This document shows, in pieces, positions 31,139 to 47,103 of a stretch of 64,000 nt of DNA (within the stretch, counting starts at the first letter, position 1; every line of letters starts with the position of its first letter). The notes beneath the pieces were generated by a model. It saw only the letters and a program-made list of their open reading frames with translations. It ran no database searches and was not told the origin of the DNA. Position numbers and translations under genes: made by a program. Origin of the DNA: Lachnospiraceae bacterium MD335 (GTDB taxonomy: Bacteria > Bacillota > Clostridia > Lachnospirales > Lachnospiraceae); the NCBI GenBank assembly GCA_000403335.2, contig KE159629.1, positions 775,854 through 839,853 on the forward strand, in the 5' to 3' direction.

Positions 31139-31229
31139 TGTCATCCTCCATTCTCACTTCGCTTACGTTATGTCCAGTATACTGTTTTATCCCCAAATTG
31201 TCCATATGCATATATGCATTCATCATTCC

Positions 31230-32936
31230 TTATTCTTCGCGCAAAACATTTGTGAAAAACTTGTCAATCACCTCTGCAATTCCGTCATGGTCATTGTCAT
31301 GCTCCGTAATATAGTCCGCGCATTCCTTTAACCGCGGCGTTGCATTTGCCATTGCGACACCGATGCCCGCCGCCTCAATCATGGAAATGTCATTCTCCTC
31401 GTCCCCTGCCGCAACCGCGTTCTTTTCAAGGATATTTAACGCTCTGCACAAATTGACCAGTGCATTTCCTTTGCCCGCATTTTTATTGAAGAATTCAAGG
31501 TAATAATTATTGGAAAACGCACACGTAAGCTCTGCCCCAAGCGAAGACGCCTCAATCTCCGCGCGAAACCGCTCAAGCTGTTCCCTGCCGTTTAAATCAA
31601 TCGTAAGAACCTTAAACGGCTCTTTGGAAAGCTCGGTTTCCAAATGGCTTCCGACCACGTACGGCATATGAATAAACTGCGTATAATAACGGATCGCTTC
31701 ATCATCAGCAATGCTGACAACATGCGTGTCCGCATACGTCTGAATATGAATGCCCCGCTCACGTGCCTTATCAAAAAGCTGCTGTGCCGCATCAATCGAA
31801 ACGGAATACTGCGCAATAAATTTATCCGCAAGACAGTCATAGAGCACTGCGCCGTTGTATGCCGTAGCGTAAATTCCGCCCGCCGTATCACTGTCCGCCT
31901 TGTGCATCTGCAAAACCGCATCCTTGATGTCAAGCGTCTCCAGCACCTCCAAAATGCTCTTCACAGGTCTTCCGCTTGCAAGCACGAGACTGCCGCCGTT
32001 TTGAATCAGCTCAAGCAGTTTTGCGCGCATTGTTTCCGAAACAGTTTTCTGTGTGGTTAAAAGCGTATTATCCAAATCCGTAAACAGGATTTTAGCTGAC
32101 CGCGCCCGTTTCATTTTTTCCAAAAGCTTCTTTGGTACACGCAGCCTCCCGTACCCTGTGCCAAGTTCCAAACCCGACTTGTTCTCACCGTGAAAATCAG
32201 AGCCGCCGCTCTCCAGCAGTCCGTACTTTTTGGCAAGCGCCCTGACCTTTCTCTCCTCCGCAGCGCAATACGTACTGTAGTACGTCTCTATCCCCATAAG
32301 TCCTGCCGCCTTCAGCCGTTTCACAAGCAGCTCCAGCTGCTCGCTTCCAAGCCCGTAAAGCATTGGATGCGCCAAAACAGGAATACCGCCCGCTTTCCTT
32401 GTCACGTCGATAACCTCCTCGGGCGTAATTTTCTCACGATGCACAAAATACGGCGTATGGTCGCCCAAATACCGCTCAAATGCCTCATCTCTGCTTTTCA
32501 CATACCCCTTCTCCAAAAGAAACGACGCATAATGCGCTCTTGTGATAACGGCGTTTGGATACGCGCGAAGAAGCTCCTCGTACGTTATGTCAATGCCCGC
32601 ACTCTGAAGATTTGCACAAAGCTTATGGTTTCTGTCCGTACGCGACTGCAAAAAACGCGCAAGGTACGCAAGAAACGCGGGCGACTTATGATCGATAAAA
32701 AGCCCCACAATATGAACGTCCCGCCCGTTGTACTCCGTCGAATACTCAATACCCGCAATGATTTCAACCGGCTTGCCCTTTGCATATTCCATAATTTCGT
32801 CAATACCGTCTACCGTATCATGGTCCGTAAGCGCAATCGCCTTTAATCCCTTCCTGACAGCATAGTCCACAAGCGCGCTTGGCGTCATGCTGCCGTCTGA
32901 CCGGATTGAATGTACATGTAAATCAATTGCTCCCAT
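31230..32936 (-). CDS. PHP-domain phosphoesterase fused to HAD (Cof-type) phosphatase
   Basis: A 568-residue bifunctional-looking hydrolase. Residues 1-280 are a PHP phosphoesterase of the TrpH/RNase AM type, with metal ligands in IDLHVHSIRSDG, LTDHDTVDG, RAHYASFL, LAHPML and GGSDFHGEN. Residues 290-568 are a Cof-type HAD phosphatase, with the nucleophile in FTDLDNTLL, motif 2 in LASGRP, and motif 4 in AVAAGDEENDISMIEAAG. Both active sites look complete. Such fusions could process 3-prime,5-prime-bisphosphates or sugar phosphates. AAAGGAG stands 12 bases before the chosen ATG at 32936; the frame opens at 33008. It lies 87 bases behind the ABC-F gene. Confidence 0.88.
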   Translation of the reverse strand: MGAIDLHVHSIRSDGSMTPSALVDYAVRKGLKAIALTDHDTVDGIDEIMEYAKGKPVEIIAGIEYSTEYNGRDVHIVGLFIDHKSPAFLAYLARFLQSRTDRNHKLCANLQSAGIDITYEELLRAYPNAVITRAHYASFLLEKGYVKSRDEAFERYLGDHTPYFVHREKITPEEVIDVTRKAGGIPVLAHPMLYGLGSEQLELLVKRLKAAGLMGIETYYSTYCAAEERKVRALAKKYGLLESGGSDFHGENKSGLELGTGYGRLRVPKKLLEKMKRARSAKILFTDLDNTLLTTQKTVSETMRAKLLELIQNGGSLVLASGRPVKSILEVLETLDIKDAVLQMHKADSDTAGGIYATAYNGAVLYDCLADKFIAQYSVSIDAAQQLFDKARERGIHIQTYADTHVVSIADDEAIRYYTQFIHMPYVVGSHLETELSKEPFKVLTIDLNGREQLERFRAEIEASSLGAELTCAFSNNYYLEFFNKNAGKGNALVNLCRALNILEKNAVAAGDEENDISMIEAAGIGVAMANATPRLKECADYITEHDNDHDGIAEVIDKFFTNVLREE

Positions 32937-33022
32937 CGTTATCACCAGCTCCTTTCCTATCCTGATACCGTCCTGATATAAGGAAAAGGCAGATGTAATT
33001 CCCTGCATCTGCCTTCGCTCTT

Positions 33023-34672
33023 TTATTCTTCCCCGCCGCTCTCGTCCTCTGCCTCGGCAGTGTACACAGCTGTTCTCTTTCTTGCCATCTCATCGCTTGC
33101 AAGGTATTCATCATACGTTGTAATCTTGTCAATCAAAGTACCGTCAGGCAAAATCTCCATAATCCGGTTTGCCGTCGTCTCTACAAACTGATGATCGTGG
33201 CAGGCAAAAATTGCCGCACCCGGAAATTTAATCAATCCGTTATTCAGCGCCGTAATCGATTCCATGTCAAGGTGGTTTGTCGGCTCATCCAAAATCAGAC
33301 AATTTGCGCCGCTAATCATCATCTTACTCAAAAGACAGCGTACCTTCTCGCCTCCGGAAAGCACCTTCACCTTTTTTACGCCGTCCTCGCCCGCAAAAAG
33401 CATACGTCCCAAAAAGCCGCGCACATACGTAATGTCATCGACCTTGGAGTATCCCATAAGCCAGTCCGCAATCGTATAGTCATTGTCAAACTCGTTTGTC
33501 GGATCCTTCGGAAAATACGCCTGCGAAGTCGTAACGCCCCACTTATAAGAACCTTCGTCCGGCTCCATTTCTCCCATTAAAATCTGAAACAGCGTTGTCT
33601 TTGCAAGCTCGTTTCCGCCCACAAACGCCACCTTGTCCTCGCGTCCTAATATAAACGAAATCTTGTCAAGCACCTTTTCGCCGTTGATTGTCTTGGAAAG
33701 ATTTTCGACCGTCAATACCTCATTGCCGATTTCACGGTCCGGTCTGAAATCAATATACGGATACTTCCGGCTTGACGGCTTAATGTCGTCCAACTCAATT
33801 TTCTCCAAAGCACGCTTTCTTGAAGTCGCCTGCTTTGACTTTGACGCATTTGCCGAGAAGCGGGAAATGAATTCCTGCAGCTCTTTAATTTTCTCTTCCT
33901 TTTTCTTGTTTGCCTCTTTCATCTGCTTGACAAGCAGCTGGCTTGACTCATACCAAAAATCATAATTGCCCGCGTAAAGCTGGATTTTGCCGTAATCAAT
34001 GTCCGCAATCTGTGTACAGACCTTGTTCAAAAAATAACGGTCATGCGATACCACGATAACCGTGTTCTCGAAATTAATCAAAAATTCCTCCAGCCACGCA
34101 ATCGCGTCCAAATCAAGATGGTTTGTCGGCTCGTCAAGCAGCAAGATGTCCGGATTGCCAAAGAGCGCCTTTGCAAGCAGCGCCTTTACCTTCTCGCTGC
34201 CGTTTAAATCCTTCATCACTGCATAGTGCAGGTCCGTGTCAATACCAAGTCCGTTTAAAAGCTGCGCGGCGTTCGACTCCGCCTCCCAGCCGTCCATCTC
34301 GGCAAATTCACCCTCCAGCTCACTTGCACGAATACCGTCCTCGTCGGTAAAATCCTCCTTTGCATAAATGGCGTCTTTTTCCTTCATAATCTCATAAAGA
34401 CGTGCGTTGCCCATAATTACCACATCCATTACGGAATACTCGTCATATTTAAAATGGTCCTGTTCCAAAACGGAGAGCCTTTGTCCGGGCGTAACAACAA
34501 TATCGCCCTTTGTCGTCTCCAATTTCCCTGACAAAATCTTTAAAAAGGTTGACTTTCCCGCTCCGTTTGCTCCGATTAAACCGTAGCAGTTGCCCTCCGT
34601 AAATTTAATGTTGACATCCTCAAATAATGCCTTTTTACCAACGCGGTACGTTACATTGTTTGCACTGATCAT
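33023..34672 (-). CDS. ABC-F family ATPase (YkpA/YbiT-like) with one degenerate site
   Basis: A 549-residue protein with two ABC domains and no membrane part. ABC-F proteins act on the ribosome as translation factors or in antibiotic protection. Domain 1 has Walker A GANGAGKST and Walker B ILLLDEPTNHLD, but its signature is LNGSEK. Domain 2 has the signature LSGGEK and Walker B CLILDEPTNHLD, but its Walker A is GGNELAKTT, lacking the usual last glycine. The linker is lysine-rich (EANKKKEEKIKELQEF). The two changes fall in the same composite ATP site. The protein resembles the YkpA/YbiT branch, which is not usually a resistance factor. Its own promoter region lies upstream. Confidence 0.9.
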   Translation of the reverse strand: MISANNVTYRVGKKALFEDVNIKFTEGNCYGLIGANGAGKSTFLKILSGKLETTKGDIVVTPGQRLSVLEQDHFKYDEYSVMDVVIMGNARLYEIMKEKDAIYAKEDFTDEDGIRASELEGEFAEMDGWEAESNAAQLLNGLGIDTDLHYAVMKDLNGSEKVKALLAKALFGNPDILLLDEPTNHLDLDAIAWLEEFLINFENTVIVVSHDRYFLNKVCTQIADIDYGKIQLYAGNYDFWYESSQLLVKQMKEANKKKEEKIKELQEFISRFSANASKSKQATSRKRALEKIELDDIKPSSRKYPYIDFRPDREIGNEVLTVENLSKTINGEKVLDKISFILGREDKVAFVGGNELAKTTLFQILMGEMEPDEGSYKWGVTTSQAYFPKDPTNEFDNDYTIADWLMGYSKVDDITYVRGFLGRMLFAGEDGVKKVKVLSGGEKVRCLLSKMMISGANCLILDEPTNHLDMESITALNNGLIKFPGAAIFACHDHQFVETTANRIMEILPDGTLIDKITTYDEYLASDEMARKRTAVYTAEAEDESGGEE

Positions 34673-34824
34673 GAATATATCCTCTTCACTTTATTTCTAT
34701 ATTAATTTTATGTGTTTGCTGCATCTTTTTCATTATACATAAAACGTAAAATATTTCAAGGGAAAATTCAGATTTTAACCACAAGTTTAATTCTTGAATT
34801 GATATAAAATTTTAAGAAAAAGAC

Positions 34825-34852
34825 TTGAAAAATTTTAAAAATTCCGTATGAT
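34825..34852 (+). promoter_or_regulatory. promoter of the chemoreceptor gene
   Basis: TTGAAA (34825-34830) and TATGAT (34847-34852) are spaced by 16 bases, about 60 bases before the start codon. The region is very AT-rich. Confidence 0.55.
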
Positions 34853-34911
34853 GTAACTATAAACATTAAAATCATATACATTAATTCTAAAGAAAGTAAG
34901 AGGGTATGTAA

Positions 34912-36261
34912 ATGGGAATCGGAAAGGGAAAAGCAGTACTTATGAAGGCAGTCTCAGAATTAAAGGAGGCTGATTACTCCAAAGAGCCTGAGTTAAACAA
35001 GATTTACCGGCGGCTGCTTGGCGGCAGAAAACAGTTTGCGGAGGTTTTTGAAAAAAATATCAAGGCAGTCATGCAGATCAGTTCTCTTGACTTGACGATG
35101 CAGCACCAAACAGATAAAATTATGGATATATCCCGCAAAGTGACAAAGGCAACCGAAACACTTTTCGGCACGTCTGCCGGCTCCTCGAACAGCCAGCACG
35201 AAGAGCTGACAAACAACATTATCAAAATCTCTGAGAAAACAGATGAAGTTTATCAAAAAATAGAATCCGGACAAACGGAACTGACCATGATTAAGGAGCT
35301 TTCTGATCAAACAATCGAAGTTTCCCGCGAAATGAAAAAAGATATGGATGAGCTTGTGAACATTATCAACCGCATCAGCACTGTTGTCGCAGGCATCGAT
35401 TCAATTTCCCTGCAGACAAACCTGCTTGCGCTCAATGCCTCCGTAGAAGCTGCAAGGGCAGGTGAGGCAGGAAGAGGCTTTGCGGTCGTTGCCGGTGAAA
35501 TCCGGGAACTTGCGGAAGAAACGCAAAAGATGACAAAAAGTATGGAATCTTTTGTGGACGATATGAAAAGCGCTTCAAAAAAGAGCGTAAAGAGCTCTAC
35601 GGATACCATCGAGTCACTGGCGTCCATGACCGACAAAATCAAAAACGTATGGGAATTAAATAACGAAAGTCAGAGCCACGTTTCCAACATCAACGAATCG
35701 ATCAGCTCCATTGCCGCTGTCAGCGAAGAAATCAGCAGTTCTATGGCAGAAATGGAGCACCAGTTAATGGAAAGCTCAAACTTTATGCGTCAGGTCGGAG
35801 AAGATCTGCATGAGGCTACCAGACCGGTTGTTGACATCGAAAAAACGCTTGATGATACAGTAAAACAAATGGGTGATATGACAAAAGATGTATTCTTCCA
35901 CTTGGAAAAACACGAATTTTCCGAATACATGAAAACTGCGATTTCGTCCCACCATGCTTGGCTTAACAATCTGAAAAAGATGATCGACAGCAAAACCATC
36001 ACGCCTTTGCAGCTTGATTCCTCAAAATGCGGATTCGGTCATTTCTACTATGCCATGACGCCTGATTTTCCCGGTGTACTTCCGGTTTGGGAGGGCTTAG
36101 GACCCAAGCATCAGAAATTCCACCGCTACGGCGCCAATGTGATTAGCGCAATCAATAACGGTGATTACATAGAAGCGGAGCGGATTTACCATGAAGCCGC
36201 AAACTATTCAAAGGAATTAATTTCCGATATGGAGAGAATTATACAGATTGCAAATGCATAA
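34912..36261 (+). CDS. soluble methyl-accepting chemotaxis-type protein with CZB zinc domain
   Basis: A 449-residue cytoplasmic chemoreceptor. No transmembrane helix is present. Heptad-rich helices surround the signalling hairpin [39 protein letters not shown] (tip near residues 165-200; only the core is cited). The C-terminal 120 residues form a chemoreceptor zinc-binding (CZB) domain: HHAWL (His347/348), C373 in [11 protein letters not shown] with His377, and His404 in [11 protein letters not shown] domains sense zinc or hypochlorous acid. No che or flagellar genes are nearby, so its partner array is elsewhere. AGTAAGAGGGTATGTAA precedes the ATG. Confidence 0.92.
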
Positions 36262-36305
36262 AAAACGCTTATGAACACTTGACAAATCAGAAAAGTAAAT
36301 TTAAT

Positions 36306-36343
36306 AAAGCAGTGAATCGTTTTTGGCGATTCACTGCTTTTCA
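36306..36343. terminator. bidirectional terminator between the chemoreceptor and Sel1-repeat genes
   Basis: A perfect 14-base stem (AAAGCAGTGAATCG 36306-36319 with CGATTCACTGCTTT 36327-36340) has T on the plus strand and AAA giving T on the minus strand. It lies between convergent genes. Confidence 0.85.
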
Positions 36344-36358
36344 TAATGTTTGTCATCC

Positions 36359-37600
36359 CTAACGGCGTACCCACTTTCCAAATCCCAGCATCGTCTTCTT
36401 ATAATTCTTCAGCTCTTCCTTAGCCTCCTGATGATCGCCTGCCTTCTGCAAAAATGCAACGCCCCGTTCAATGTCCTCCGCAACGCCAAGCCCGCGCGCA
36501 AAAATCATGCCGCGAAGATAATCTGCTTCCCAGTAATTCCAATCTACCTGATCCAAAAACATACGTGCCCTCGTGTAGTCCTGCGGCGTTCCATATCCGT
36601 AAAAACAGCACTTGCCTAAATAAAATACACCCCATTTGCTGCCCTTATCATAAGCATATGATAACAGCTCAAATGCCTTGTTATAATCCTGCGCAACGCC
36701 TCTTCCGAAAAAGTACGCCTTTCCCAAACGGTTATGACTGTCAATATGCCCGAGCGGAAGCTCCTTCTGAAAGCATTCAACGGAATATGCCTCATTTTTT
36801 GCCGTGCCGATTCCCTCGGCATAGCAGCGTCCCACATCGCACCAAGCGCCGGGATGTCCGCCGTCTGCCGCCTTTTGGAACCACTGCAGCGCTTCCTCTT
36901 TGCGTCCTGCCTCTTCCAACTCCTCCGCATAAATTGCCTGATGAAGCGGATGACCGTACTCCGCACCGATTCGGAACAAATCCCTTGCCTTTGACGGGTC
37001 CGGCTTTATAATATCCTCATCGCCCTTTGTATAGTATTGATTCAGGTTGTTTGCCGCAAAGTACATGCCGCCGCGCAAAGCCTTCCAAAACCAGTCCTCA
37101 CACTTTGAAATATTTTCCTTTAAATATGCCTTAAACGCCGCCTGATTAGGGAAATCCTCGCTGCCCTTATTCTGTATGCGCAAAAAATCCCACCAAAAAT
37201 AACAGTTGCCAATCACATACTGACAGAATGCATCTCCGTCCTGCGCCTGCCCCAAAACCACGTCAAACGCTTCCTGCAGATTTGCAAACGGCATCTTCTG
37301 CTCAAGCGCGGGCGTAAGCTCCCCGCAGCGCAGACAAATCAACACGCCAAGCGCACTTCCCTGCTCCACGGATTTATGATAAAGCGCAGTCGCTTTATCA
37401 TCATCCTCCGGAAACCGATGTCCGATCCACACATACTGGCGACCGCAATAGCATCTTGCCAGGATACAGGATGCATCCCCGTCCCCTGCAGCCGATGCCT
37501 GCTCCAATAAAGCAAATGCCTCCTTCCCCCGTCCTGTACGCTCATGATAATAAATATCCTCCAGCGCCTGCTTCACCTCATTGCTCAGTGTCTTACCCAT
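36359..37600 (-). CDS. Sel1-like repeat protein, third gene of the ibrAB operon
   Basis: A 413-residue protein built of Sel1-like (TPR-type) repeats of about 36 residues. Clear units include EEALQWFQKAADGGHPGAWCDVGRCYAEGIG, AFELLSYAYDKGSKWGVFYLGKCCFYGYG (cited as parts ALQWFQKAADGG, LGKAYFFGRGVAQD and GKCCFYGYGTPQD). Five to seven repeats can be counted. There is no signal peptide. Such proteins are protein-interaction scaffolds. It starts 47 bases behind the ibrB-like stop with GGAG close by, so it probably belongs to the ibrA-ibrB transcript. A direct functional link is an inference. Confidence 0.85.
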   Translation of the reverse strand: MGKTLSNEVKQALEDIYYHERTGRGKEAFALLEQASAAGDGDASCILARCYCGRQYVWIGHRFPEDDDKATALYHKSVEQGSALGVLICLRCGELTPALEQKMPFANLQEAFDVVLGQAQDGDAFCQYVIGNCYFWWDFLRIQNKGSEDFPNQAAFKAYLKENISKCEDWFWKALRGGMYFAANNLNQYYTKGDEDIIKPDPSKARDLFRIGAEYGHPLHQAIYAEELEEAGRKEEALQWFQKAADGGHPGAWCDVGRCYAEGIGTAKNEAYSVECFQKELPLGHIDSHNRLGKAYFFGRGVAQDYNKAFELLSYAYDKGSKWGVFYLGKCCFYGYGTPQDYTRARMFLDQVDWNYWEADYLRGMIFARGLGVAEDIERGVAFLQKAGDHQEAKEELKNYKKTMLGFGKWVRR

Positions 37601-37647
37601 ATTTTTCTCCGTCCTTTCTTTTCTTTATTGATTATTTGCATAAAATA

Positions 37648-38217
37648 TTATTTTTCTTCCTCCTGCGCATTTTTTTCGTCCTCACGCAGCATATCCTCAA
37701 TCGGTTTCCATGCCTGACCGAAGTTGACATCCTTAAAAAGCGCCGCAAGCCCGCTTATCTGCTTGAGACGCAGAATTTCATCCTTATCCATGCCCAAATG
37801 CTTTGAAATCCACGCGTCGCTTCTGCCCAGCTCATGCAGCTCCTTGACAATATTGCTCATCAGATCCACATCATGCGAACCGCGCGCGCGATTATGTCTG
37901 ACTGTACTAGCCATGCGGTTTGACAACGGTTTGTCAATCACGGCAACCGGCATCATCCCATGCTCCCGCTCGTAAATATCAGGATACTCCTTCATTACAT
38001 GCCAGCGGTGAAATCCGTCCACAATCGCGTACAAGTCCTTCTTCGGGGAATAGTAACATACAATCGGCATCGTATAACCGTCCTCCCTGATGCTGTCATA
38101 AAGCAGCTTCATCTCCGGCGGAGCAACGCTGTTAGGATTGTATGTATTAGGCACAATCTTTTCAAAAGGAACTGCAATCACATTGTATACCGGACTCTTA
38201 AATTCATTATTTGCCAT
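37648..38217 (-). CDS. ParB/Srx-fold nuclease-like protein, IbrB-like
   Basis: A 189-residue protein of the ParB/sulfiredoxin superfamily. The typical box is IVDGFHRWHVMKEYPDIY (the G-x-H-R motif), preceded by the PNTYNPNSVAPPEM turn and followed by RHNRARGSHDVDLM. A helical helix-turn-helix-like region (GRSDAWISKHLGMDKDEILRLKQ) closes the protein. This matches IbrB, which is always found with IbrA. In E. coli the pair affects expression of immunoglobulin-binding eib genes; the chemistry is unsettled. The start overlaps the end of the ibrA-like gene by 11 bases, giving tight coupling. Confidence 0.85.
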   Translation of the reverse strand: MANNEFKSPVYNVIAVPFEKIVPNTYNPNSVAPPEMKLLYDSIREDGYTMPIVCYYSPKKDLYAIVDGFHRWHVMKEYPDIYEREHGMMPVAVIDKPLSNRMASTVRHNRARGSHDVDLMSNIVKELHELGRSDAWISKHLGMDKDEILRLKQISGLAALFKDVNFGQAWKPIEDMLREDEKNAQEEEK

Positions 38218-39529
38218 TAATCATTTCTCCATATTTTCGTTTGATTTTATCGTTTCGCAATTGCTCCTGCCGCGTCAGCCCAAAGCCCATAAAACGGCAG
38301 GTATGATCGTTCTTCAAAATGCAGTAGCACATCCGTTTCCAGCTCGGAATGTCCTTTGTTGATTTAATATCGTCCGTATCATCGGGAATATCCCCGACAA
38401 AAACAACTCTGGAATTTTTCATCAGCGTATAATTGGATACACCGTTTCGCCGGATATTGTATCCGTGGTCAATCAGCTCCTGTATCACACTTTCCTCCAA
38501 ACCGCCGCCGGTCTTATGCCAAAATTCGATTGAAGTCTTGAACTTTTTTACATAATTATTTCGAAGTCTTGCTGGAAGCGTATCGAGCAGGAACTTCGTA
38601 TAGGATTCCCATGTGTGTCCTTCCGGAAGCGTGATATTGCGGTATCCCATCGCTTTGGTTTTTCCGTAAATACAGCCAAAATTCGCCCCGCGCACACGTC
38701 CCACCAGCTTTGTCCAAATTTCTGGATCCAGCACTCTGTATAGGTTCAGGGAATCTTTTGAAAAATCGTTAAACGGCGAAGCCACACGCATCTGATCAAT
38801 TTTCAGCCCCGCCTTATAATATAAATCATACAATACATTATAGTCATAATGAAACTGATAATTTGCCACCCACACATCCTGATTGGACCAGTCATAAATG
38901 GGCGATGCACACCACACATCCTTAAACTGCTTGGAAATCCAGCACTCCCCGTTGTACCCGTACTTCTTATTCACAATACCGCTGTAACGCTGCAGCGATT
39001 CGTCCGCGCGAATCCCCAGCAGACTGACTGTTTTTCCGTAATCATGCGTTTCCCTGTAAAAACGCCCGAACTGCTTTGCAAGATCTTCCTGATGCATCCG
39101 GTAACGGTAATGATTAAACGGTTTATCTATTGTGATGACATAGGGATAATTTGGTCTTGGACGCACCCACTGGTCTTCTTTTTTATCGTCCCACGGATAC
39201 CAGTACATCTCATAACTGCTCAGCGCCGTTCTCGTCGCCATCGGCAGACATACCCAGTACAAATCACATTCTCCCTCAAGCGCTTTAAAGGTTCTTGTGA
39301 CATACTCCGTCGTCACAGTATACTGCGCCTCAAAATCCTGATGGAATACGCCAATTCTGCGTCCCGGATAATACTTGCGCTTAAAATCCAATAAAAGGTT
39401 AAGCAGTACGCCGCTGTCCTTGCCGCCGCTAAATGATACATAGATATTGTCGAACTCATGAAACAGGTAATGGAAGCGTTCCTGCACGGCATCATAAACG
39501 TTCTTTTTTTCATATCCTTTTACCATCAT
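38207..39529 (-). CDS. PAPS-reductase/ATP-pyrophosphatase family protein, IbrA-like (DUF3440)
   Basis: A 440-residue protein of the PAPS reductase superfamily. The PP-loop is VSFSGGKDSGVLLNLLL near residue 30, where ATP or an adenylated substrate would bind. The DUF3440 region follows with the VTTEYVTRTFKALE, HPIYDWSNQDVWVANY-like stretch (SPIYDWSNQDVWVANY) and a C-terminal cysteine and histidine cluster (CYCILKNDHTC), possibly metal-binding. It matches IbrA of enteric bacteria and prophages. GGGAGGG lies 7 bases before the ATG at 39529, which was preferred over the frame start at 39586. It heads the ibrA-ibrB-sel1 unit. Confidence 0.87.
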   Translation of the reverse strand: MMVKGYEKKNVYDAVQERFHYLFHEFDNIYVSFSGGKDSGVLLNLLLDFKRKYYPGRRIGVFHQDFEAQYTVTTEYVTRTFKALEGECDLYWVCLPMATRTALSSYEMYWYPWDDKKEDQWVRPRPNYPYVITIDKPFNHYRYRMHQEDLAKQFGRFYRETHDYGKTVSLLGIRADESLQRYSGIVNKKYGYNGECWISKQFKDVWCASPIYDWSNQDVWVANYQFHYDYNVLYDLYYKAGLKIDQMRVASPFNDFSKDSLNLYRVLDPEIWTKLVGRVRGANFGCIYGKTKAMGYRNITLPEGHTWESYTKFLLDTLPARLRNNYVKKFKTSIEFWHKTGGGLEESVIQELIDHGYNIRRNGVSNYTLMKNSRVVFVGDIPDDTDDIKSTKDIPSWKRMCYCILKNDHTCRFMGFGLTRQEQLRNDKIKRKYGEMINGK

Positions 39530-39658
39530 AACGTATCCCTCCCAAAGCTGTATAATCTGCTGATTTTCCTGACACACCCAAAACAAACATCAATATTGTA
39601 GCATATTTTTCCATTTTTTTCCATTTTTTAGAAAATTTTTCCAATTTAATTTTAAAGA

Positions 39659-39700
39659 AAAAATGCTTTGAGCGATACCCGTACCGCTCAAAGCATTTTT
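39659..39700. terminator. terminator behind the sugar ABC permease genes
   Basis: A perfect 16-base stem (39659-39674 with 39685-39700) contains AATGCTTTGAGCG and has A and T runs on both ends. It lies 12 bases behind the permease stop and closes the ABC operon. It could also act in the other direction. Confidence 0.9.
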
Positions 39701-39711
39701 TCCGTATTTGA

Positions 39712-40584
39712 TTATCCTTTTACGCTTCCCAGCGCAACTCCCTGTACAATAAACCGTGAGAGGAATAAATAGACGATAATTACAGGAAAAATGGAAAATG
39801 CAATCATCACATAAACCTGCCCCATATCAAATTTCAGCCAGTCCGCGCTTCTTAACTGCGCAATCAAAATCGGCAGAGTCTTCTTTTTCTCGTTATGCAA
39901 AATCAACGCCGGTGTGAAGTAGTTATTCCAGCTTGTCACAAACGTGAAAATCATCTGCACTGCGATTGCAGGCTTCATCAGCGGAAACGCAATCGTGTTG
40001 AACGTCCGAAACTCGCCGGAGCCGTCAATTCTCGCCGCTTCCACCAAAGACAGCGGCAGCGTACTTTCCATATACTGTTTCATATAAAAGAAGGTCGCAG
40101 GCGCTGCAATTGCAGGCACAATCAGCGGAATAAAGGAATCTTCCAATTTCATTTTAGACACCAGCTGCAGAAAACCAAGTGCGGTTACCTGCGTCGGGAT
40201 CATCATAATCATCAAAATAAACGAAAACATGAACTTCTTTAATTTAAAGTCATACGCATGAATCGCATACGCCGTCATCGTCGAAAAATAAGTGGACAAA
40301 ATTGCCGAGAGCGCCGCGACAATAAATGAGTTGAACATTCCTGACCAAATCGGCAGCGTGCTCTTTGTCAGCAGATTATGCCAGTTTTCCAGCAAATGCG
40401 TACTCGGTATCGGCGTAAAGCCCGTCGTCAGCTCCCCGTGGGAACGGGTTGCATTGATAAACAATATGTAAAACCAAAACAGACACAGGACAGATACCAA
40501 CACCAAAGCAAGATAAGCGACCGCTCTTCTAGGACCCAGTGCCAGCCCTTTTTTATTTTTATAATTATTTTCCTGATTCATCAT
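39712..40584 (-). CDS. carbohydrate ABC transporter permease (MalG type)
   Basis: A 290-residue inner membrane permease of the CUT1 sugar ABC family. Six hydrophobic segments are visible, beginning with VAYLALVLVSVLCLFWFYILF. The EAA loop, which docks the ATPase, is SLVEAARIDGSGEFRTFN. A typical late segment is IFTFVTSWNNYFTPALI. It lies 9 bases behind the MalF-type permease gene and is the last gene of the operon. No ATPase gene is present, so a shared MsmX-like ATPase elsewhere is expected. Confidence 0.93.
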   Translation of the reverse strand: MMNQENNYKNKKGLALGPRRAVAYLALVLVSVLCLFWFYILFINATRSHGELTTGFTPIPSTHLLENWHNLLTKSTLPIWSGMFNSFIVAALSAILSTYFSTMTAYAIHAYDFKLKKFMFSFILMIMMIPTQVTALGFLQLVSKMKLEDSFIPLIVPAIAAPATFFYMKQYMESTLPLSLVEAARIDGSGEFRTFNTIAFPLMKPAIAVQMIFTFVTSWNNYFTPALILHNEKKKTLPILIAQLRSADWLKFDMGQVYVMIAFSIFPVIIVYLFLSRFIVQGVALGSVKG

Positions 40585-40593
40585 TGCTCCCTC

Positions 40594-41505
40594 CTATTCC
40601 TGATTTCTGTTTGTCGCCTTATAGACGAACATACTCAAAATTCCGGTTACGATAAACAGAAGGACTGACAACGCACCTGCCATACCGTAATTCTTGCTAA
40701 ACAAATGTTTGTTCAAGTACATAATCAATGTCATGGTCGAGCGCATCGGGTCACCGGTTCCGTTCGTCAAAATCTGCGGTACATCAAACATCTGTAAACC
40801 GCCGATTAGCGAGGTTATCATCACGTATACCAAAATCGGCCGCAGCAGGGGCAGTGTAATCCTGAAAAATACCTGCGTGGAAGTCGCACCATCCACTTCC
40901 GCCGCCTCAAAGAGCGATGTGTCAATCCCCATCATTCCTGCCATCAGCAAAATGGTCGTATTTCCAAACCACATCAGAAAGTTCATAAAAGCAACCAGTG
41001 ATCTTGCACTCCATGTATTGGACAGAAACTTAAACGGCTCGCTTGTGATACCAGCCTGCATCAAGATAGAATTGACCGGACCGCTGTTAGAAAACAAGGT
41101 AAAGAACAGCATTGCAAATGCTGACGCCATAATCAGATTAGGCAAATAAATAACGGTCTTAAAAAAACGCTGTCCTTTCAGCCGCAGGCTCGGATTGGAG
41201 AACCATGCGCCAAGCAGCAAAGACACAAGAATCTGGGGTACAAATCCCATCACCCACATAATCAGCGTATTTTTTGCATATGTCCACAGATCCGCATTCT
41301 GCAAAATTGCCGCATAGTTTTTAAAACCTATGAAATTTGGTCCGATTTGCGTCAAACCGGAACGGTAATTCTCATAGAAACTGTTTATAACCGTCGTAAC
41401 CAAAGGTATCATTTGAAAAATTATGTAAACTCCAATAAAAGGAATCAGGAAAATATATCCCCATTTATTATAACTTACCACCCTACTTTGCTTTCGGCTC
41501 TTCAT
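40594..41505 (-). CDS. carbohydrate ABC transporter permease (MalF type)
   Basis: A 303-residue CUT1 sugar permease. Six hydrophobic segments start with WGYIFLIPFIGVYIIFQMIP. The EAA motif is SLFEAAEVDGATSTQVFF, in the cytoplasmic loop before LPLLRPILVYVMI. It pairs with the MalG-type protein as the transport channel. It follows the binding lipoprotein gene after a 189-base gap holding a strong stem-loop, so it is probably expressed at lower level than the binding protein. AGGAGG lies before the start. Confidence 0.93.
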   Translation of the reverse strand: MKSRKQSRVVSYNKWGYIFLIPFIGVYIIFQMIPLVTTVINSFYENYRSGLTQIGPNFIGFKNYAAILQNADLWTYAKNTLIMWVMGFVPQILVSLLLGAWFSNPSLRLKGQRFFKTVIYLPNLIMASAFAMLFFTLFSNSGPVNSILMQAGITSEPFKFLSNTWSARSLVAFMNFLMWFGNTTILLMAGMMGIDTSLFEAAEVDGATSTQVFFRITLPLLRPILVYVMITSLIGGLQMFDVPQILTNGTGDPMRSTMTLIMYLNKHLFSKNYGMAGALSVLLFIVTGILSMFVYKATNRNQE

Positions 41506-41651
41506 CTTTCATATCCTCCTTTTCATCCTTATTCTGCACCTGTTATCTGTATCACGGCAGCCATCATCAGCTGCAGAACTCGCAGCAAATCTCTTTTTCA
41601 CTTCCTATGCCTAACCAAAACCTGCTGCCGGTTCTGCATTTAAACTTATTT

Positions 41652-41683
41652 TGTGCCTGCCCGACTGCTGTCAGGCAGGCACA
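41652..41683 (-). promoter_or_regulatory. intercistronic stem-loop behind the sugar-binding protein gene
   Basis: A perfect 10-base GC-rich stem, TGTGCCTGCC with GGCAGGCACA, lies 12 bases behind the lipoprotein stop and has no T run. Such stems, as in malE-malF, protect the upstream message and lower downstream expression. The function is inferred from position. Confidence 0.65.
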
Positions 41684-41694
41684 TTGCTGTCAGA

Positions 41695-43134
41695 TTAATA
41701 TGTCAGCTCAGGATATTTCTCTACTACTGCCTTGTAGAATAAGTCAAGTGCGCCGTCTAAATCCGTATTGCCGTCAAAGTAATTCTTCATTGCGTTTTGG
41801 AACTCTTCATTACAGCCCTGGTCATAGATGGAAAGGTTGCTCAAATCAAGACCTTCAACACCTGCGCAGTACATTGCAAGCGGGTTCTGTCCGCCCAAAA
41901 TCTTGCTTGAGTAGCTTGCATCTTCTGCCATTGCGTTCATTGCCGGCTTGTTGTTTACGAAATCATCATCCGCCACAACGATTTCCTTCATGATTTCTTC
42001 ATTTGCCGTCATCTGCAGCATGATGTCTTTTACAAGGCTGGCATTGTCTGTTCCTGCCGCTGCACAAATCCATGTACCGCCCCAGAAGAAGCCCTGCGGT
42101 CCTTCGGTTGCTGCCCATCCGCCTGCGTTACCGATACTTCCTTCTTTGTCGGCTGCCATACTGAAGTTTACAAGCCAGGCCGGTCCGAAATAAGAGAATA
42201 CCTTGCCGTCCGGATAAAAGCCTCTTGACCAGTCATCGCTCCAAAGGTCATGTGTTCCGATTTGACCTGCGTCTACAAGCGCCTTCGAATCCTCTACCCA
42301 CTTCATAATGTTGTCGTCAATGTTAATCTTTCCGTCAACCACCCATTTTGAGGTTACGTTGTTGGAATATACACGGTATGTATCGTTTGCGGAAGAAGCC
42401 ACATAATAGCCCTTATCCTTCAAGGTCTTTGCCGTCTCGTTAAACGTATCCCAATCCTTTACGTACTCCTGAATCTCAGCCGGATCATCCGTGCCGAAAA
42501 CATCCTTTGCCACCTCGCGGCTATAGAACATAACGCCCGGGCATCCCTGCCATGAAACGCCTTTTAATACGCCGTTCGAATCCGTTACAATATCCTTCGT
42601 ATACTGATACTGGTTTGCCAAATCCGCATCCGTGATGCCAAGATCCTTAACAGGCATTGTGAACTCAGTATCTACATATTTTAACGCATAATCCGCCTCA
42701 ACCAAAAAGAGGTCAATTTTATCATCCGTTGCCGCGTCCGCCTGTCTTAACAGGGTTTCGTCCAAATTGTTCTGATATGCGTTGTCGTCATTTGGCGTGA
42801 TATTCCATACAACCGATACGTCGCCGATGGTTCCGTGTGTCGCGTCGATAACTTCATAGTTGGGATAGTGGTCTTTGATGCGGCGGTAAAACTCGTCGTT
42901 CCAGCAGTATACGTTCAAAACCTTTCCTTCGTCAGCCGACGTGTCCACCGCTGCCTGCGTTTCCGTATTGTCGGCTGCAGGTGTCGTCTGTGCCGGAGCC
43001 GGTGTGTCTGCCGCGGGCGTTGTTGCCGTCGGTTCATTATTGCTGGCTGCCGGTTCTTGACTGTTTCCGCATCCGGCTAACAGTCCGGTCAGCATTGTTG
43101 CTGCAAGTAACGTACTTAATACTTTTCTTTTCAT
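41695..43134 (-). CDS. sugar-binding lipoprotein of the ABC transporter
   Basis: A 479-residue extracytoplasmic solute-binding protein of the CUT1 type. The signal peptide ends in the lipobox LLAGC, so Cys22 is lipidated. A low-complexity linker rich in alanine, proline and threonine runs to about residue 65. The binding domain starts with KVLNVYCWNDEFYRRIKDHYP and contains many surface tryptophans, typical for sugar stacking (WFSYFGPAWLVNF-like FSYFGPAWLVNF and AGGWAATEGPQGFFWGGTW). ATGGAGG lies 7 bases before the ATG. With the GH94 enzyme opposite, a beta-glucoside such as cellobiose is the likely ligand. Confidence 0.93.
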   Translation of the reverse strand: MKRKVLSTLLAATMLTGLLAGCGNSQEPAASNNEPTATTPAADTPAPAQTTPAADNTETQAAVDTSADEGKVLNVYCWNDEFYRRIKDHYPNYEVIDATHGTIGDVSVVWNITPNDDNAYQNNLDETLLRQADAATDDKIDLFLVEADYALKYVDTEFTMPVKDLGITDADLANQYQYTKDIVTDSNGVLKGVSWQGCPGVMFYSREVAKDVFGTDDPAEIQEYVKDWDTFNETAKTLKDKGYYVASSANDTYRVYSNNVTSKWVVDGKINIDDNIMKWVEDSKALVDAGQIGTHDLWSDDWSRGFYPDGKVFSYFGPAWLVNFSMAADKEGSIGNAGGWAATEGPQGFFWGGTWICAAAGTDNASLVKDIMLQMTANEEIMKEIVVADDDFVNNKPAMNAMAEDASYSSKILGGQNPLAMYCAGVEGLDLSNLSIYDQGCNEEFQNAMKNYFDGNTDLDGALDLFYKAVVEKYPELTY

Positions 43135-43189
43135 ATTTTTTCCTCCATAAAAATGATAAAAATAAGTTGTGCGTTTATCCTAAGGAATA

Positions 43190-44218
43190 TTATTCCCCAA
43201 ATGCCGTTTCCATTGTTCTGACAGTCTTTCCTTCGTACACCTCTCCCTCAATCACCACCGTTTGTACAACGGTTGTCTTTGGATTTTCGATTAACTGAAT
43301 CAGGTTTTGTGCCGCCTGCGCGCCAATCTGCTTCGTGTTCTGCCGCAGGGTCGTAAGCTGTGGTTCTAAATGCCTGCCAATCCGAATCCCGTCATACCCC
43401 GCCACGGATATATCCTGTGGAATGTCCAGTCCCCTGTCGTTGATGGCATTGATGCCGCCAAAGCTTGCAAAATCGTCGGGATACAGAATACAAGTCGGCG
43501 GATTGGGCAAATCCAGCAGCTCCATTGTTTTTAAAAATGTCGCATCGGTGTCTCTGTAAGCAGCTTCCTTAATGTATTCATCCGGAATATCCAGTCCCAG
43601 CTCCTGTGCCGTCCTGTAAAAGGAAGCGAGTCTGCTTTGGGTTACCGCAGAGTCCGCACCGTGTATGTAGGCAATGCGCCTGTGCCCTTTGTTGTATACG
43701 AATGTAAGCAAATCCTTCATGCCCTTTACATTGTCCGAAATAATTGCCATTCTGTTATTAAACAGGTGGTCAATCGTAACCACCGGAATGTTGCTTCGCA
43801 CCAGCTCCAGCACCTCCGGATCGTAGAAATCAACACAGGCAATCACGACGCCGTCGAACCCTCTGTATCTTGCATGTTCCAAGTAAGACATCCTGTTCTC
43901 CCTTGTCTTATTGCAGTTGATAAAGGTCATATCGTAACCCTGCCCCTCCACGGTCCGCTTAAAACTGTCAAGCACATATGAAAAATAGTCATGTGTCAGA
44001 CCGCTGCGCGCTTCGTCGGTAAACAGAACCCCGATATTGTATGTGCGGCGCGTCTTTAACGCTTTTGATGCAGAATTGGGAACATATCCCATCTCTTTGG
44101 CAATCTGCCGAATCCGCTTTTTTGTTTCTTCCCCGATGTCCTTGTGGTCATTCAGCGCCTTACTGACTGTCGCCACCGATACCCCGCAGGCCATCGAAAT
44201 GTCTTTCATTGATACCAT
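43190..44218 (-). CDS. LacI family transcription regulator
   Basis: A 342-residue regulator. The N-terminal helix-turn-helix is typical (VSMKDISMACGVSVATVSKALNDH, with the hinge GYVPNSASKAL). The C-terminal sugar-binding core has IGVLFTDEARSGL, VVTIDHLFNNR, GHRRIAYIHG and a closing TTLRQNTKQIG. It is encoded 55 bases upstream of the binding lipoprotein gene on the same strand and divergent from the GH94 gene. Operator-like sequences in the intergenic region fit both self-regulation and control of the phosphorylase. The ligand is probably the imported sugar. Confidence 0.94.
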   Translation of the reverse strand: MVSMKDISMACGVSVATVSKALNDHKDIGEETKKRIRQIAKEMGYVPNSASKALKTRRTYNIGVLFTDEARSGLTHDYFSYVLDSFKRTVEGQGYDMTFINCNKTRENRMSYLEHARYRGFDGVVIACVDFYDPEVLELVRSNIPVVTIDHLFNNRMAIISDNVKGMKDLLTFVYNKGHRRIAYIHGADSAVTQSRLASFYRTAQELGLDIPDEYIKEAAYRDTDATFLKTMELLDLPNPPTCILYPDDFASFGGINAINDRGLDIPQDISVAGYDGIRIGRHLEPQLTTLRQNTKQIGAQAAQNLIQLIENPKTTVVQTVVIEGEVYEGKTVRTMETAFGE

Positions 44219-44270
44219 GCTTCCACTCTCCTGCCTATAGAAGTAACTGTTTGGTTCTTTTTATTTACTT

Positions 44271-44283
44271 AATCGTTTTCGTA
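44271..44283. promoter_or_regulatory. LacI-type operator-like box 1
   Basis: The 13-base string AATCGTTTTCGTA is repeated exactly at 44432-44444, and a variant (TAAACGTTTTC) lies in the GH94 promoter. This copy sits just behind the lacI promoter, near its expected transcript start. A regulator site is inferred. Confidence 0.6.
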
Positions 44284-44288
44284 CTTTT

Positions 44289-44317
44289 ACTATAATCCAA
44301 TTTTGAGATAATTACAA
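44289..44317 (-). promoter_or_regulatory. promoter of the LacI-type gene and ABC operon
   Basis: On the minus strand TTGTAA (44317-44312) and TATAGT (44294-44289) are spaced by 17 bases. The operator-like box 1 follows 6 bases downstream. Confidence 0.6.
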
Positions 44318-44431
44318 GAGGTTTTTGTGCTTTTTTTATATTTTAGGTAATTTTACACATTTTTCATTGGCTATTTTGTCTATTTTCCTAAATTTCTTGC
44401 AATTTTCGTCATTTTATGCAATTGCTATCAA

Positions 44432-44444
44432 AATCGTTTTCGTA
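44432..44444. promoter_or_regulatory. LacI-type operator-like box 2
   Basis: An exact second copy of the 13-base string at 44271, followed directly by AACGCTT. It lies near the middle of the 449-base region between the divergent genes and could allow looping with the promoter-proximal sites. The rest of that region is AT-rich, without further recognisable genes. Confidence 0.55.
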
Positions 44445-44566
44445 AACGCTTCTTTCCTGATTAACTGTACCCCGATTTGCATAAAACCGTTGTTTTTTCT
44501 ATTAATATCAACACTTTGTCCCATTAAACATATTTGTTCTTACCATCAAAAAATTTTTTTCAGCAC

Positions 44567-44595
44567 TTGACTTTTACTTAAACGTTTTCTATAAT
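44567..44595 (+). promoter_or_regulatory. promoter of the GH94 phosphorylase gene with an operator in the spacer
   Basis: TTGACT (44567-44572) and a perfect TATAAT (44590-44595) are spaced by 17 bases. The spacer holds CTTAAACGTTTTC with the palindrome AAACGTTT (44580-44587), a LacI-family half-site pattern. A bound repressor would block the promoter. Confidence 0.8.
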
Positions 44596-44667
44596 GCAAT
44601 CAGAGAGTGATATTTTGAATACCTTATGTTTGTTTATTGATTATTAGAAACGGAGGACTTTGCGAAT

Positions 44668-47103
44668 ATGAAATTCGGATATTTTGACGACCAAAACAAA
44701 GAATATGTCATAACAACGCCCAAAACACCGCTTCCCTGGATTAATTATCTAGGATGCAATGAATTTTTCAGCCTGATTTCCAACACCTGCGGCGGATACA
44801 GCTTCTATAAAGACGCAAAACTGCTGCGTCTGACAAGATACCGCTACAACGATCTTCCGGCAGATACAAACGGAAAATACTTTTACATAAAAGACGAAAA
44901 CAGCGTGTGGAACCCGGGCTGGCAGCCATCAAAGACGGATTTGGATTCCTATGAATGCCGCCACGGTATTGGCTACAGCCGCTTTACCGCATCAAAAAAC
45001 GACGTGGAAGCCGGTTTACTGACATTCGTACCCATGAATGACCTCTGCGAAATCAGCAGCTTAACGTTGACCAACCGTTCCGCATCAAAAAAAGAACTGA
45101 CACTGTTTTCCTATGTGGAATGGTGTCTTTGGAACGCGGACGACGATATGAAAAACTTTCAGCGCAACTTAAATATCGGCGAGGTGGAAGTCATTGGTTC
45201 CACTATTTATCACAAGACAGAGTACCGCGAGCGCCGCAATCATTATGCCGTATATTCGGTCAATACCAAGACGGACGGATTTGACACAAGCCGCGACGCG
45301 TTTATCGGCGCATACCGCGGCGCAAATCTGCCGCTTGCCGTAGAAAACGGCGCCTGCACAAACTCGATTGCAAGCGGCTGGTCCCCGATTGCCGCCCATC
45401 AGATTAACGTATCGTTAGCGCCCGGCGAAACGAAATCGTTTGTTTTCATTCTCGGCTATGTGGAAAATCAGGAAGACGAAAAGTGGGAATCGGACGGCAT
45501 TATCAACAAAAATCCCGCAAATGCACTGCTTGCAAAATATCAGACGGACGCTGACGTGGAAACGGCTTTCGCAAGCTTAAAGCAGTACTGGGATACGCTG
45601 CTTTCAAAATACAGCGTAAAGTCCGAAAACGATAAAGTGGACCGCATGGTCAACATTTGGAACCAATACCAGTGCATGGTAACCTTTAACATGTCACGTT
45701 CGGCGTCATACTATGAATCAGGAATCGGACGCGGTATGGGATTTCGCGATTCGTGTCAGGATTTGCTCGGGTTTGTGCATTTAATTCCCGACCGCGCAAG
45801 GGAACGTATTATTGACATTGCCTCTACGCAGTTTCAGGACGGCAGCGCATATCATCAGTACCAGCCGCTCACAAAGAAAGGCAACTCCGACATCGGAAGC
45901 GGTTTTAACGACGATCCGCTGTGGCTGATTGCCGGAACGAGCGCTTATGTGCGGGAAACAGGTGATACTTCGATTTTGACGCAGCTTGTCCCTTTTGACA
46001 ACGATATGTCGGCGGCAGCGCCGCTGATGGAGCACTTAAAACGTTCTTTGGACTATATTATTACGCACAAGGGACCGCATAACCTACCGTTAATCGGACG
46101 TGCGGACTGGAACGACTGTCTGAATCTAAACTGTTTTTCCGCACATCCCGGAGAATCGTTCCAAACCTTTGGACCAAGCGAGGGACCGGTTGCGGAGTCG
46201 GTATTTATTGCCGGCATGTTTGTAAAATATGCAGAAGAATATGCACAGCTTGCCGAGCTTATGAATATACCCGAAGAGGCTGCGCGGGCAAGAGCGGAAG
46301 CCGCAGCGATGAACGAGGCAATTTTAAAGGACGGCTGGGACGGCGACTGGTTTATCCGCGCTTATGACGCATACAGCCGCAAAGTCGGCTCCAAAGAGTG
46401 TGAGGAGGGGCAGATTTATATTGAACCGCAGGGCTTTTGTGTGCTTGCAGGCGTCGGTGTTAAGGAAGGGCTTGCCGAAAAGGCGCTCAATTCCGTCAAA
46501 GAAAAACTGGATACGGATTATGGAATTATGCTGCTGCAGCCTGCCTATACCAAGTATCACTTAGAGCTTGGCGAGGTTTCCTCCTACCCGCCCGGATACA
46601 AGGAAAACGCCGGAATTTTCTGTCACAATAATCCGTGGATATCCATTGCGGAAACAGTCATCGGCAGGGGAAGCCGCGCATTTGAAATCTATCGCAAGAC
46701 CTGCCCTGCTTATGTGGAGGAAATCAGCGAAATCCACAGGACGGAACCTTATGTGTATTCGCAGATGATTGCCGGAAGGGATGCAAAATCCCACGGCGAG
46801 GCAAAGAACAGCTGGCTGACCGGTACGGCAGCGTGGACGTTTGTCAATATTTCACAGTATATTTTGGGCGTTTCCCCCACACACGCGGGGCTTTGTGTAA
46901 ATCCCTGCGTTCCGAAAGGATTTGGCGGCTTTACGCTGACCCGGAAATTCCGTGAGGGAACTTATACGATTACCGTAAAAAATCCCGATAACGTGGAAAA
47001 AGGTGTGCGCAGCATGACGGTTGACGGGAAAGCGGTTGACGGATGTATCATTCCGTATGAAAAAGGGAAGACAACTTATCAGGTCGTTGTAACGATGGGA
47101 TAA
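44668..47103 (+). CDS. GH94 cellobiose phosphorylase
   Basis: An 811-residue inverting phosphorylase of family GH94. It splits cellobiose with phosphate into glucose 1-phosphate and glucose in the cytoplasm, saving ATP. The N-terminal beta-sandwich is followed by an (alpha/alpha)6 barrel. Conserved strings are [48 protein letters not shown], and [15 protein letters not shown], where Asp483 in W-N-D is the expected general acid. The length and these motifs fit cellobiose phosphorylase better than chitobiose or laminaribiose enzymes. No signal peptide. CGGAGG lies before the ATG. It is divergent from the LacI-ABC operon and probably shares its regulator. Confidence 0.93.

Follow-up and report, generated by a model that had tools for sequence, protein, structure and literature searches.

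Layout of the ibrA, ibrB and sel1 genes

We analysed a stretch of 64,000 nucleotides from Lachnospiraceae bacterium MD335 (contig KE159629.1 of an assembly of 19 contigs and 4.96 Mb; hereafter the window), in which three minus-strand genes follow one another: an ibrA-like gene (38207-39529), an ibrB-like gene (37648-38217) and a Sel1-repeat gene, sel1 (36359-37600). An earlier interpretation drawn from the letters alone (the sequence-only reading) had proposed the three as a candidate uncharacterised system. The locus proved to be a member of a known pair, IbrA/IbrB, with a Sel1 neighbour that is limited to one clade. Its core is a two-gene, probably translationally coupled ibrA-ibrB module, which also occurs on phages and plasmids and is chromosomal here, and sel1 stands outside this general unit.

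The identities proposed for the three genes were confirmed by Pfam and PHROGs matches. IbrA (440 amino acids from the ATG at 39529; a TTG at 39586 would give 459) matched PAPS_reduct, a PP-loop ATP-pyrophosphatase domain, at residues 29-238 (1.7e-10), DUF3440 at residues 241-423 (6.3e-88; 293.7 bits, the cut-off being 25) and phrog_2302 (8.3e-102). IbrB (189 amino acids) matched phrog_2159 (3.5e-80), and the Sel1 protein (413 amino acids) matched Sel1 (9.1e-29). The coordinates of the open reading frames (ORFs) likewise upheld the common strand, the 11-base overlap of ibrA and ibrB (38207-38217), which probably couples their translation, and the 47-base gap between ibrB and sel1 (37601-37647).

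A terminator-like hairpin of 14 pairs was located 3' of sel1 (36306-36340, minus strand) by the folding test (z = -8.0) and by a consensus terminator scan. A second strong hairpin (39656-39703, minus strand; z = -10.3), in the gap that separates ibrA from the ABC permease gene upstream of it, was detected by the folding test and was absent from the consensus scan; it is probably the end of the transporter transcript. The ibrB-sel1 gap folded no better than shuffled sequences (z = -0.59). Taken over all its hits, the terminator scan did little better than shuffled sequences (4 against a mean of 2.8), and both hairpins therefore rest on the folding test. Because strong hairpins bracket the trio and none lies between ibrB and sel1, the three genes are probably carried on one transcript, and the operon-like layout described earlier was supported in this sense. 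The position of sel1 alone is ordinary, because the next gene on the same strand lay within 50 bases in 14 of 87 other ibrA loci with a callable next gene (up to three duplicates included); a next gene on the same strand at any distance was found in 45 of them.

According to Pfam, the trio is flanked on one side by ABC permeases, a LacI regulator and a GH94 protein, and on the other by a methyl-accepting chemotaxis protein (MCP), an ABC-F protein, a PHP/HAD hydrolase and a GGDEF protein; a solute-binding-like ORF (41695-43134) had no Pfam match at 1e-5. No phage family was found among the scanned neighbour proteins, in agreement with the chromosomal, non-prophage setting that had been described.

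The ibrA-ibrB pair in chromosomes, plasmids and phages

The distribution of ibrA was surveyed in a sample of 397 genomes of the family and in 38 genomes of the genus. DUF3440 was matched in 73 of the 397, with 70 exceeding the cut-off, and ibrA was present in 22 of the 38. A scan of genome contigs, from which the best 80 of 499 IbrA relatives were kept, was combined with 29 loci of the family sample to give 109 other ibrA loci, or 106 distinct loci after removal of three duplicates; many of the named relatives from the contig scan bear the label Lachnospiraceae. The ibrB gene lay beside ibrA in 107 of the 109 (104 of the 106), and both exceptions (L005 and L093) end just after ibrA; this linkage is far beyond chance. 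Mechanical calling of the longest ORFs lost ibrA in 6 of 110 loci (window included), and more loci lost ibrB to overlapping ORFs, so that tallies at the level of genes have n = 104, 92 or 87. With start codons picked mechanically, ibrA and ibrB overlapped in 51 of the 76 chromosomal loci that passed the filters for both genes and in 35 of the 67 such viral loci; annotated plasmid copies from Klebsiella and E. coli show an overlap too.

The pair is widespread outside chromosomes. IbrA-like matches were found in 215 phage records and IbrB-like matches in 220, with near-equal counts per host genus; 212 of the 220 IbrB-like matches spanned 80% of the query. Among plasmids, 596 records matched IbrA, 566 of them over 80% of the query. 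In a control scan for DUF3440, 2 of 14 control genomes matched, E. coli among them. The 55-kb circular, unannotated sequence OY725847.1, labelled as a Subdoligranulum variabile plasmid, encodes an IbrA 74.7% identical to that of the window. In Mycobacterium phage Devonte and Bacillus phage 031MP003, two ParB-like genes surround the PP-loop gene, one product being 32-33% and the other 17-23% identical to IbrB.

IbrA/IbrB is a known pair, comprising YbdN/YbdM of E. coli K-12, IbrAB of E. coli ECOR-9 and copies on phages and plasmids. The window carries both features of this family, namely a protein with a PP-loop domain and DUF3440 and, directly after it, a coupled gene for a ParB-fold protein. 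IbrB is described as an activator of Eib expression, with reference to Sandt 2002 (PMC7649339). IbrA/IbrB of ECOR-9, the activators of prophage eib genes (PMC7649339), belong by annotation to the same two families as the window proteins; however, the host differs, and the window pair is chromosomal with a Sel1 gene behind it. The plasmid copies of E. coli and Klebsiella share the gene order of the window and likewise have an overlap, and enterobacterial plasmid IbrA proteins were 30-33% identical to the window IbrA among the matches listed. In E. coli K-12, ybdNM is likewise a two-gene operon of DUF3440 and ParB-like proteins, adjacent to the gene of the LysR-type regulator CitR and repressed by CitR (PMC9068703), whereas the window pair adjoins an ABC permease gene and sel1. 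IbrA and IbrB have also been noted in Asgard-archaeal viruses (PMC8813620) and glacier phages (PMC4490671). The literature searched reported no chemistry for either protein, and we agree with the sequence-only reading that their biochemistry is not established.

A third gene recurs with the pair in phages, and it encodes an SNF2-like helicase. We queried viral contigs with IbrB and kept the best 80 of 144 (L197-L276), a set not thinned for relatedness, in which IbrB was 62-76% identical to the window protein. All 80 contigs contained ibrA, which preceded ibrB on the same strand in each of the 73 with both ORFs called. In 60 of the 80 loci, the helicase gene was on the ibrA strand and upstream of ibrA, with no intervening ORF in 53 and one or two in 7; it overlapped the called ibrA start in 46 loci, ORF starts again being mechanical, and lay downstream in 6 of the 80. 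One member of the helicase cluster was scanned and matched SNF2-rel_dom (PF00176) and Helicase_C (PF00271). These phage modules contain the same pair as the window, whereas the coupled helicase gene is absent from the window locus. Two annotated Streptococcus phages carry the pair, one with a helicase gene directly upstream and the other with none. Titles and abstract openings contained no link between IbrAB and SNF2 proteins, subscription papers being mostly outside this search.

A cupin cluster, the scanned member of which was ectoine-synthase-like, was observed in 8 of the 80 viral loci. Such a cupin lies between ibrA and ibrB in L265. In Mycobacterium phage Gaia, an ectoine-synthase-like stretch precedes IbrB within one protein annotated as ectoine synthase/ParB, and in L193 the cupin is annotated as one protein with IbrB or beside it.

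The sequence-only reading had pointed to defence systems with similar folds, and an anti-phage or DNA-phosphorothioation-like function, related to Dnd, Ssp or BREX type 4, was considered. DndC/DndB (PMC10853773) is also a PP-loop enzyme with a ParB-superfamily partner. When the three trio proteins were searched with PADLOC, the only matches were weak ones to DndC and BrxP, and IbrA has a near-invariant pair of cysteines, which would suit such chemistry. However, the DndC profile scored 23.8 bits against the 290.4 required of an equivalog, and no other dnd or ssp gene was found among the nine flanking window proteins (30191-47103), which is the part of the genome searched for them. The only one of these nine to match PADLOC was the ABC-F protein, through generic ABC-ATPase models including mad3 and mad8.

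Of 122 listed proteins flanking ibrAB in relatives, 115 were scanned (four contig-end partials were omitted, and three others for length), and the commonest Pfam families, from the best 25 of 117 listed, were housekeeping: EPSP synthase (9) and MatE (5), then queuosine synthesis, MCP and Fe-ADH (4 each). PADLOC at 1e-10 gave five family-hits among the 115 (mad3 twice, mad2, mad8 and a GlgB-named model once each), a raw count with no control set, and the mad3 and mad8 matches are generic because the window ABC-F protein also matches both. A defence-island setting was thus not found, either at the window flanks or among the 115 proteins. In addition, the presence of the pair in phages themselves, together with a helicase, accords better with phage takeover or counter-defence. 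We consequently regard a defence or phosphorothioation role as unlikely.

The Sel1 gene as a clade-limited neighbour

One proposal is a genuine three-component system, with the Sel1 protein as scaffold for IbrA and IbrB, and it predicts a constant Sel1 neighbour. The common strand, the short gap and the bracketing hairpins described above are consistent with it. Nevertheless, the Sel1 gene was found in none of the 106 distinct other ibrA loci (tblastn, 1e-3), 103 of which extend at least 300 bases past ibrB; the view past ibrB is 458-938 bases in the 29 loci of the family sample, and one locus (L069) stops 4 bases after the ibrB match. Similarly, when the neighbours of ibrA loci were searched with a Sel1 repeat profile built from 16 proteins and 48 repeats, the sole match was the window's own Sel1 protein. 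The three-gene system was thus not borne out, and the absence of Sel1 from homologous loci is the outcome that the sequence-only reading had itself named as speaking against it. Among the papers listed, none paired Sel1 with IbrA or IbrB, again in a search that mostly left subscription papers outside.

Within the genus, a full-length Sel1 relative of at least 71% identity was present in 6 of the 38 genomes, source genome included, and a further one was cut short. A Sel1 orthologue (89-100% identity) adjoined the ibrA unit in 3 of the 22 ibrA-bearing genomes; these are the source genome, G426 and G400, all of one genus, and they are the only ones in which the same-strand order ibrA-ibrB-sel1 was seen. 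In G415, of the same genus, sel1 is kept with part of ibrB, where the contig ends. The G400 trio has other flanking genes, and the only run of Ns in that stretch falls inside ibrA; therefore, the trio, or its surroundings, moved as a unit. In G402, ibrA and a Sel1 relative lie on separate contigs, which argues against a constant association.

In the family sample, 14 of the 397 genomes had both a DUF3440 and a Sel1-relative match, whereas independence of the two (73 and 52 genomes) would give about 9.6, a slight excess in favour of three components. However, the two lay within 10 kb in only 2 of the 14, the source genome and G273; in the latter, which belongs to another genus, a 62% identical Sel1 relative adjoins ibrB in convergent orientation. 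Moreover, 12 of the 13 Sel1 loci outside the same-strand trio were without ibrAB in the stretch fetched. In 8 of the 13, a conserved membrane-protein gene lay directly upstream of the Sel1 relative (L178, L180, L181, L183, L184, L185, L187 and L188; no Pfam match for the one member scanned), and this membrane protein is likely the true partner of the window's Sel1 family, although it had no match in the source genome. Taken together, a three-component system appeared rather improbable to us, and sel1 is most readily understood as an independent gene that came to lie beside ibrAB in one small clade. It is a recent, lineage-specific addition, possibly carried on the ibrAB transcript.

In two other loci, L040 and L042, a protein of 367-371 amino acids, which we take to have a sulfotransferase-like start, lies between ibrB and an MCP gene, the slot held by Sel1 in the window; the L040 protein had no Pfam match. 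None of the ten MCP orthologues of the genus had another window gene beside it.

The IbrA and IbrB proteins and a proposed role

Conservation was assessed in 160 loci (80 from the contig scan and 80 viral), and the window was added; a usable IbrA was obtained from 148 of the 160 and a usable IbrB from 155. An intact N-type PP-loop, [ST]-x-GKDS, was present in all 148 IbrA relatives. IbrA also bears D65/E67, G-x-R-x2-E-S-x2-R and P-x2-D-x4-D-x-W motifs, and S34, G36, K37, D38, S39, D65, E67, G172, R174, E177, S178, R181, P210, D213, D218 and W220 were each at least 99% conserved in the 149 aligned sequences. Among its cysteines, C94 was kept in 148 of the 149, C411 in 144, C401 in 134 and C403 in 129. 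The predicted structure (pLDDT 85.2) matched CysH, human FAD synthase and CysD in Foldseek (best E 7.2e-7), and the solved structures closest by sequence were only CysD, FAD synthase and LarE, with weak scores.

IbrB appeared to combine a ParB/Srx-fold N-terminal domain with a helical region resembling KorB, ParB and Noc, and it is too short for a C-terminal dimerisation domain. Its D-G-x-H-R and H-N-R-A-R-G motifs occurred in all 155 sequences, and 57 of its 189 positions were at least 98.5% identical over 156 sequences. In Foldseek, the predicted structure (pLDDT 78.7) ranked Noc, ParB and KorB first, with SerK and sulfiredoxin lower. GERR is the P-motif of ParB, and it was found in 0 of 155 IbrB sequences; no parA-type family was detected among the flanking window proteins scanned with Pfam. 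IbrB is thus alike in predicted fold to the CTP-dependent DNA clamps KorB, ParB and Noc, but has DGxHR in place of GERR, is too short for a C-terminal dimerisation domain and has no adjacent parA, and it does not look like a canonical ParABS clamp. In L035 and L036, the IbrB ORF has 362 amino acids, its ParB part being followed by a GNAT acetyltransferase domain (Acetyltransf_1, L035 protein).

The database names and the PAPS_reduct domain suggest a sulfur-metabolism pair, with IbrA as a PAPS/APS reductase and IbrB as an enzyme akin to SerK or sulfiredoxin, and IbrB did match the SerK NCBIfam model (4.8e-6), in line with the lower-ranked fold matches. However, ECG-x-H, the C-terminal catalytic motif of PAPS reductases, was found in 0 of 148 IbrA relatives and was absent, by reading, from the window protein, and GGCHR, the catalytic motif of sulfiredoxins, was found in 0 of 155 IbrB sequences. 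The SerK match reached 25.9 bits against an equivalog cut-off of 380, and Noc, ParB and KorB outrank both SerK and sulfiredoxin. PAPS reductase, sulfiredoxin and serine kinase were accordingly rejected as identities by motif or score tests, and a sulfur-metabolism pair seems very unlikely; the motifs mark IbrA as a PP-loop ATP-pyrophosphatase that lacks the signature of PAPS reductases. A toxin-antitoxin-like pair, with IbrB as antitoxin and IbrA as toxin, is predicted for Listeria lmo1309/lmo1310 in the TASmania table, the DUF3440 protein through guilt by association (PMC7020466), but it was drawn from a ParB-like profile and from adjacency and fits poorly with the high conservation of IbrB and the enzyme-like PP-loop site, so that we give it hardly any credence.

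The reading that we prefer, and to which we assign about an even chance, is that IbrA is a PP-loop, ATP-using enzyme that would be guided by a ParB/KorB-like, DNA-binding partner, IbrB. ParB folds are known to bind ATP, GTP or CTP (PMC12704722), and ParB-superfamily partners of DNA-modifying enzymes are on record: DndB, with DndC, and DpdB (PMC10853773, PMC12839542). In the proposed mechanism, IbrA would spend ATP on the adenylation, or some other modification, of a substrate that is most likely nucleic acid, and IbrB would be the nucleotide-gated, DNA-binding partner that directs IbrA to DNA. In phages, the SNF2-like helicase would join both on DNA. The outcome may be altered transcription of resident genes, as is reported of the prophage eib genes, a DNA mark, or both. 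The Sel1 protein, probably encoded on the ibrAB transcript, would be dispensable for the core function.

Several observations weigh against this reading. Each of its catalytic steps is inferred. The ParB_N match of IbrB (7.9e-5, 23.1 bits) is under the Pfam gathering score of 26.3, and its Foldseek TM-scores are moderate, up to 0.59 of the query (with KorB). IbrA reached 0.25-0.33 of the query in the 50 matches listed, likewise moderate values, and its fold match therefore covers the PP-loop half only. The near-invariant pair C94/C411 may leave room for sulfur chemistry. Of the 215 IbrA-like matches in phages, only 41 span 80% of the query, indicating that many are distant. The SNF2-like helicase was not seen in 14 of the 80 viral loci, 4 of which have less than 1 kb before ibrA, and 20 phage helicases had no match at 1e-8 among the neighbours of chromosomal ibrA loci. 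Finally, the trio is kept in three to four genomes, once with other flanks, and Sel1 may thus have a role in that clade.

A bolder extension of the IbrA/IbrB reading can be imagined, although we place little confidence in it. The phage operon of SNF2 helicase, IbrA and IbrB might write an undescribed, ATP-driven DNA mark or adenylate a DNA-bound protein. Its helicase would open or translocate DNA, and IbrB would serve as a nucleotide-gated DNA clamp. Bacteria would then have kept the helicase-free core as a chromosomal regulator, and this genus would lately have added a Sel1 scaffold tying the core to a host signal.

The IbrA/IbrB gene pair is strongly conserved and occurs in phages, on plasmids and in chromosomes. 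The position of Sel1 outside the general unit, together with the recurrence of the SNF2-like helicase in phages, indicates the combinations of genes worth testing. Should IbrAB prove to act on DNA, a PP-loop-based mechanism would be added to those of phage takeover or gene regulation.

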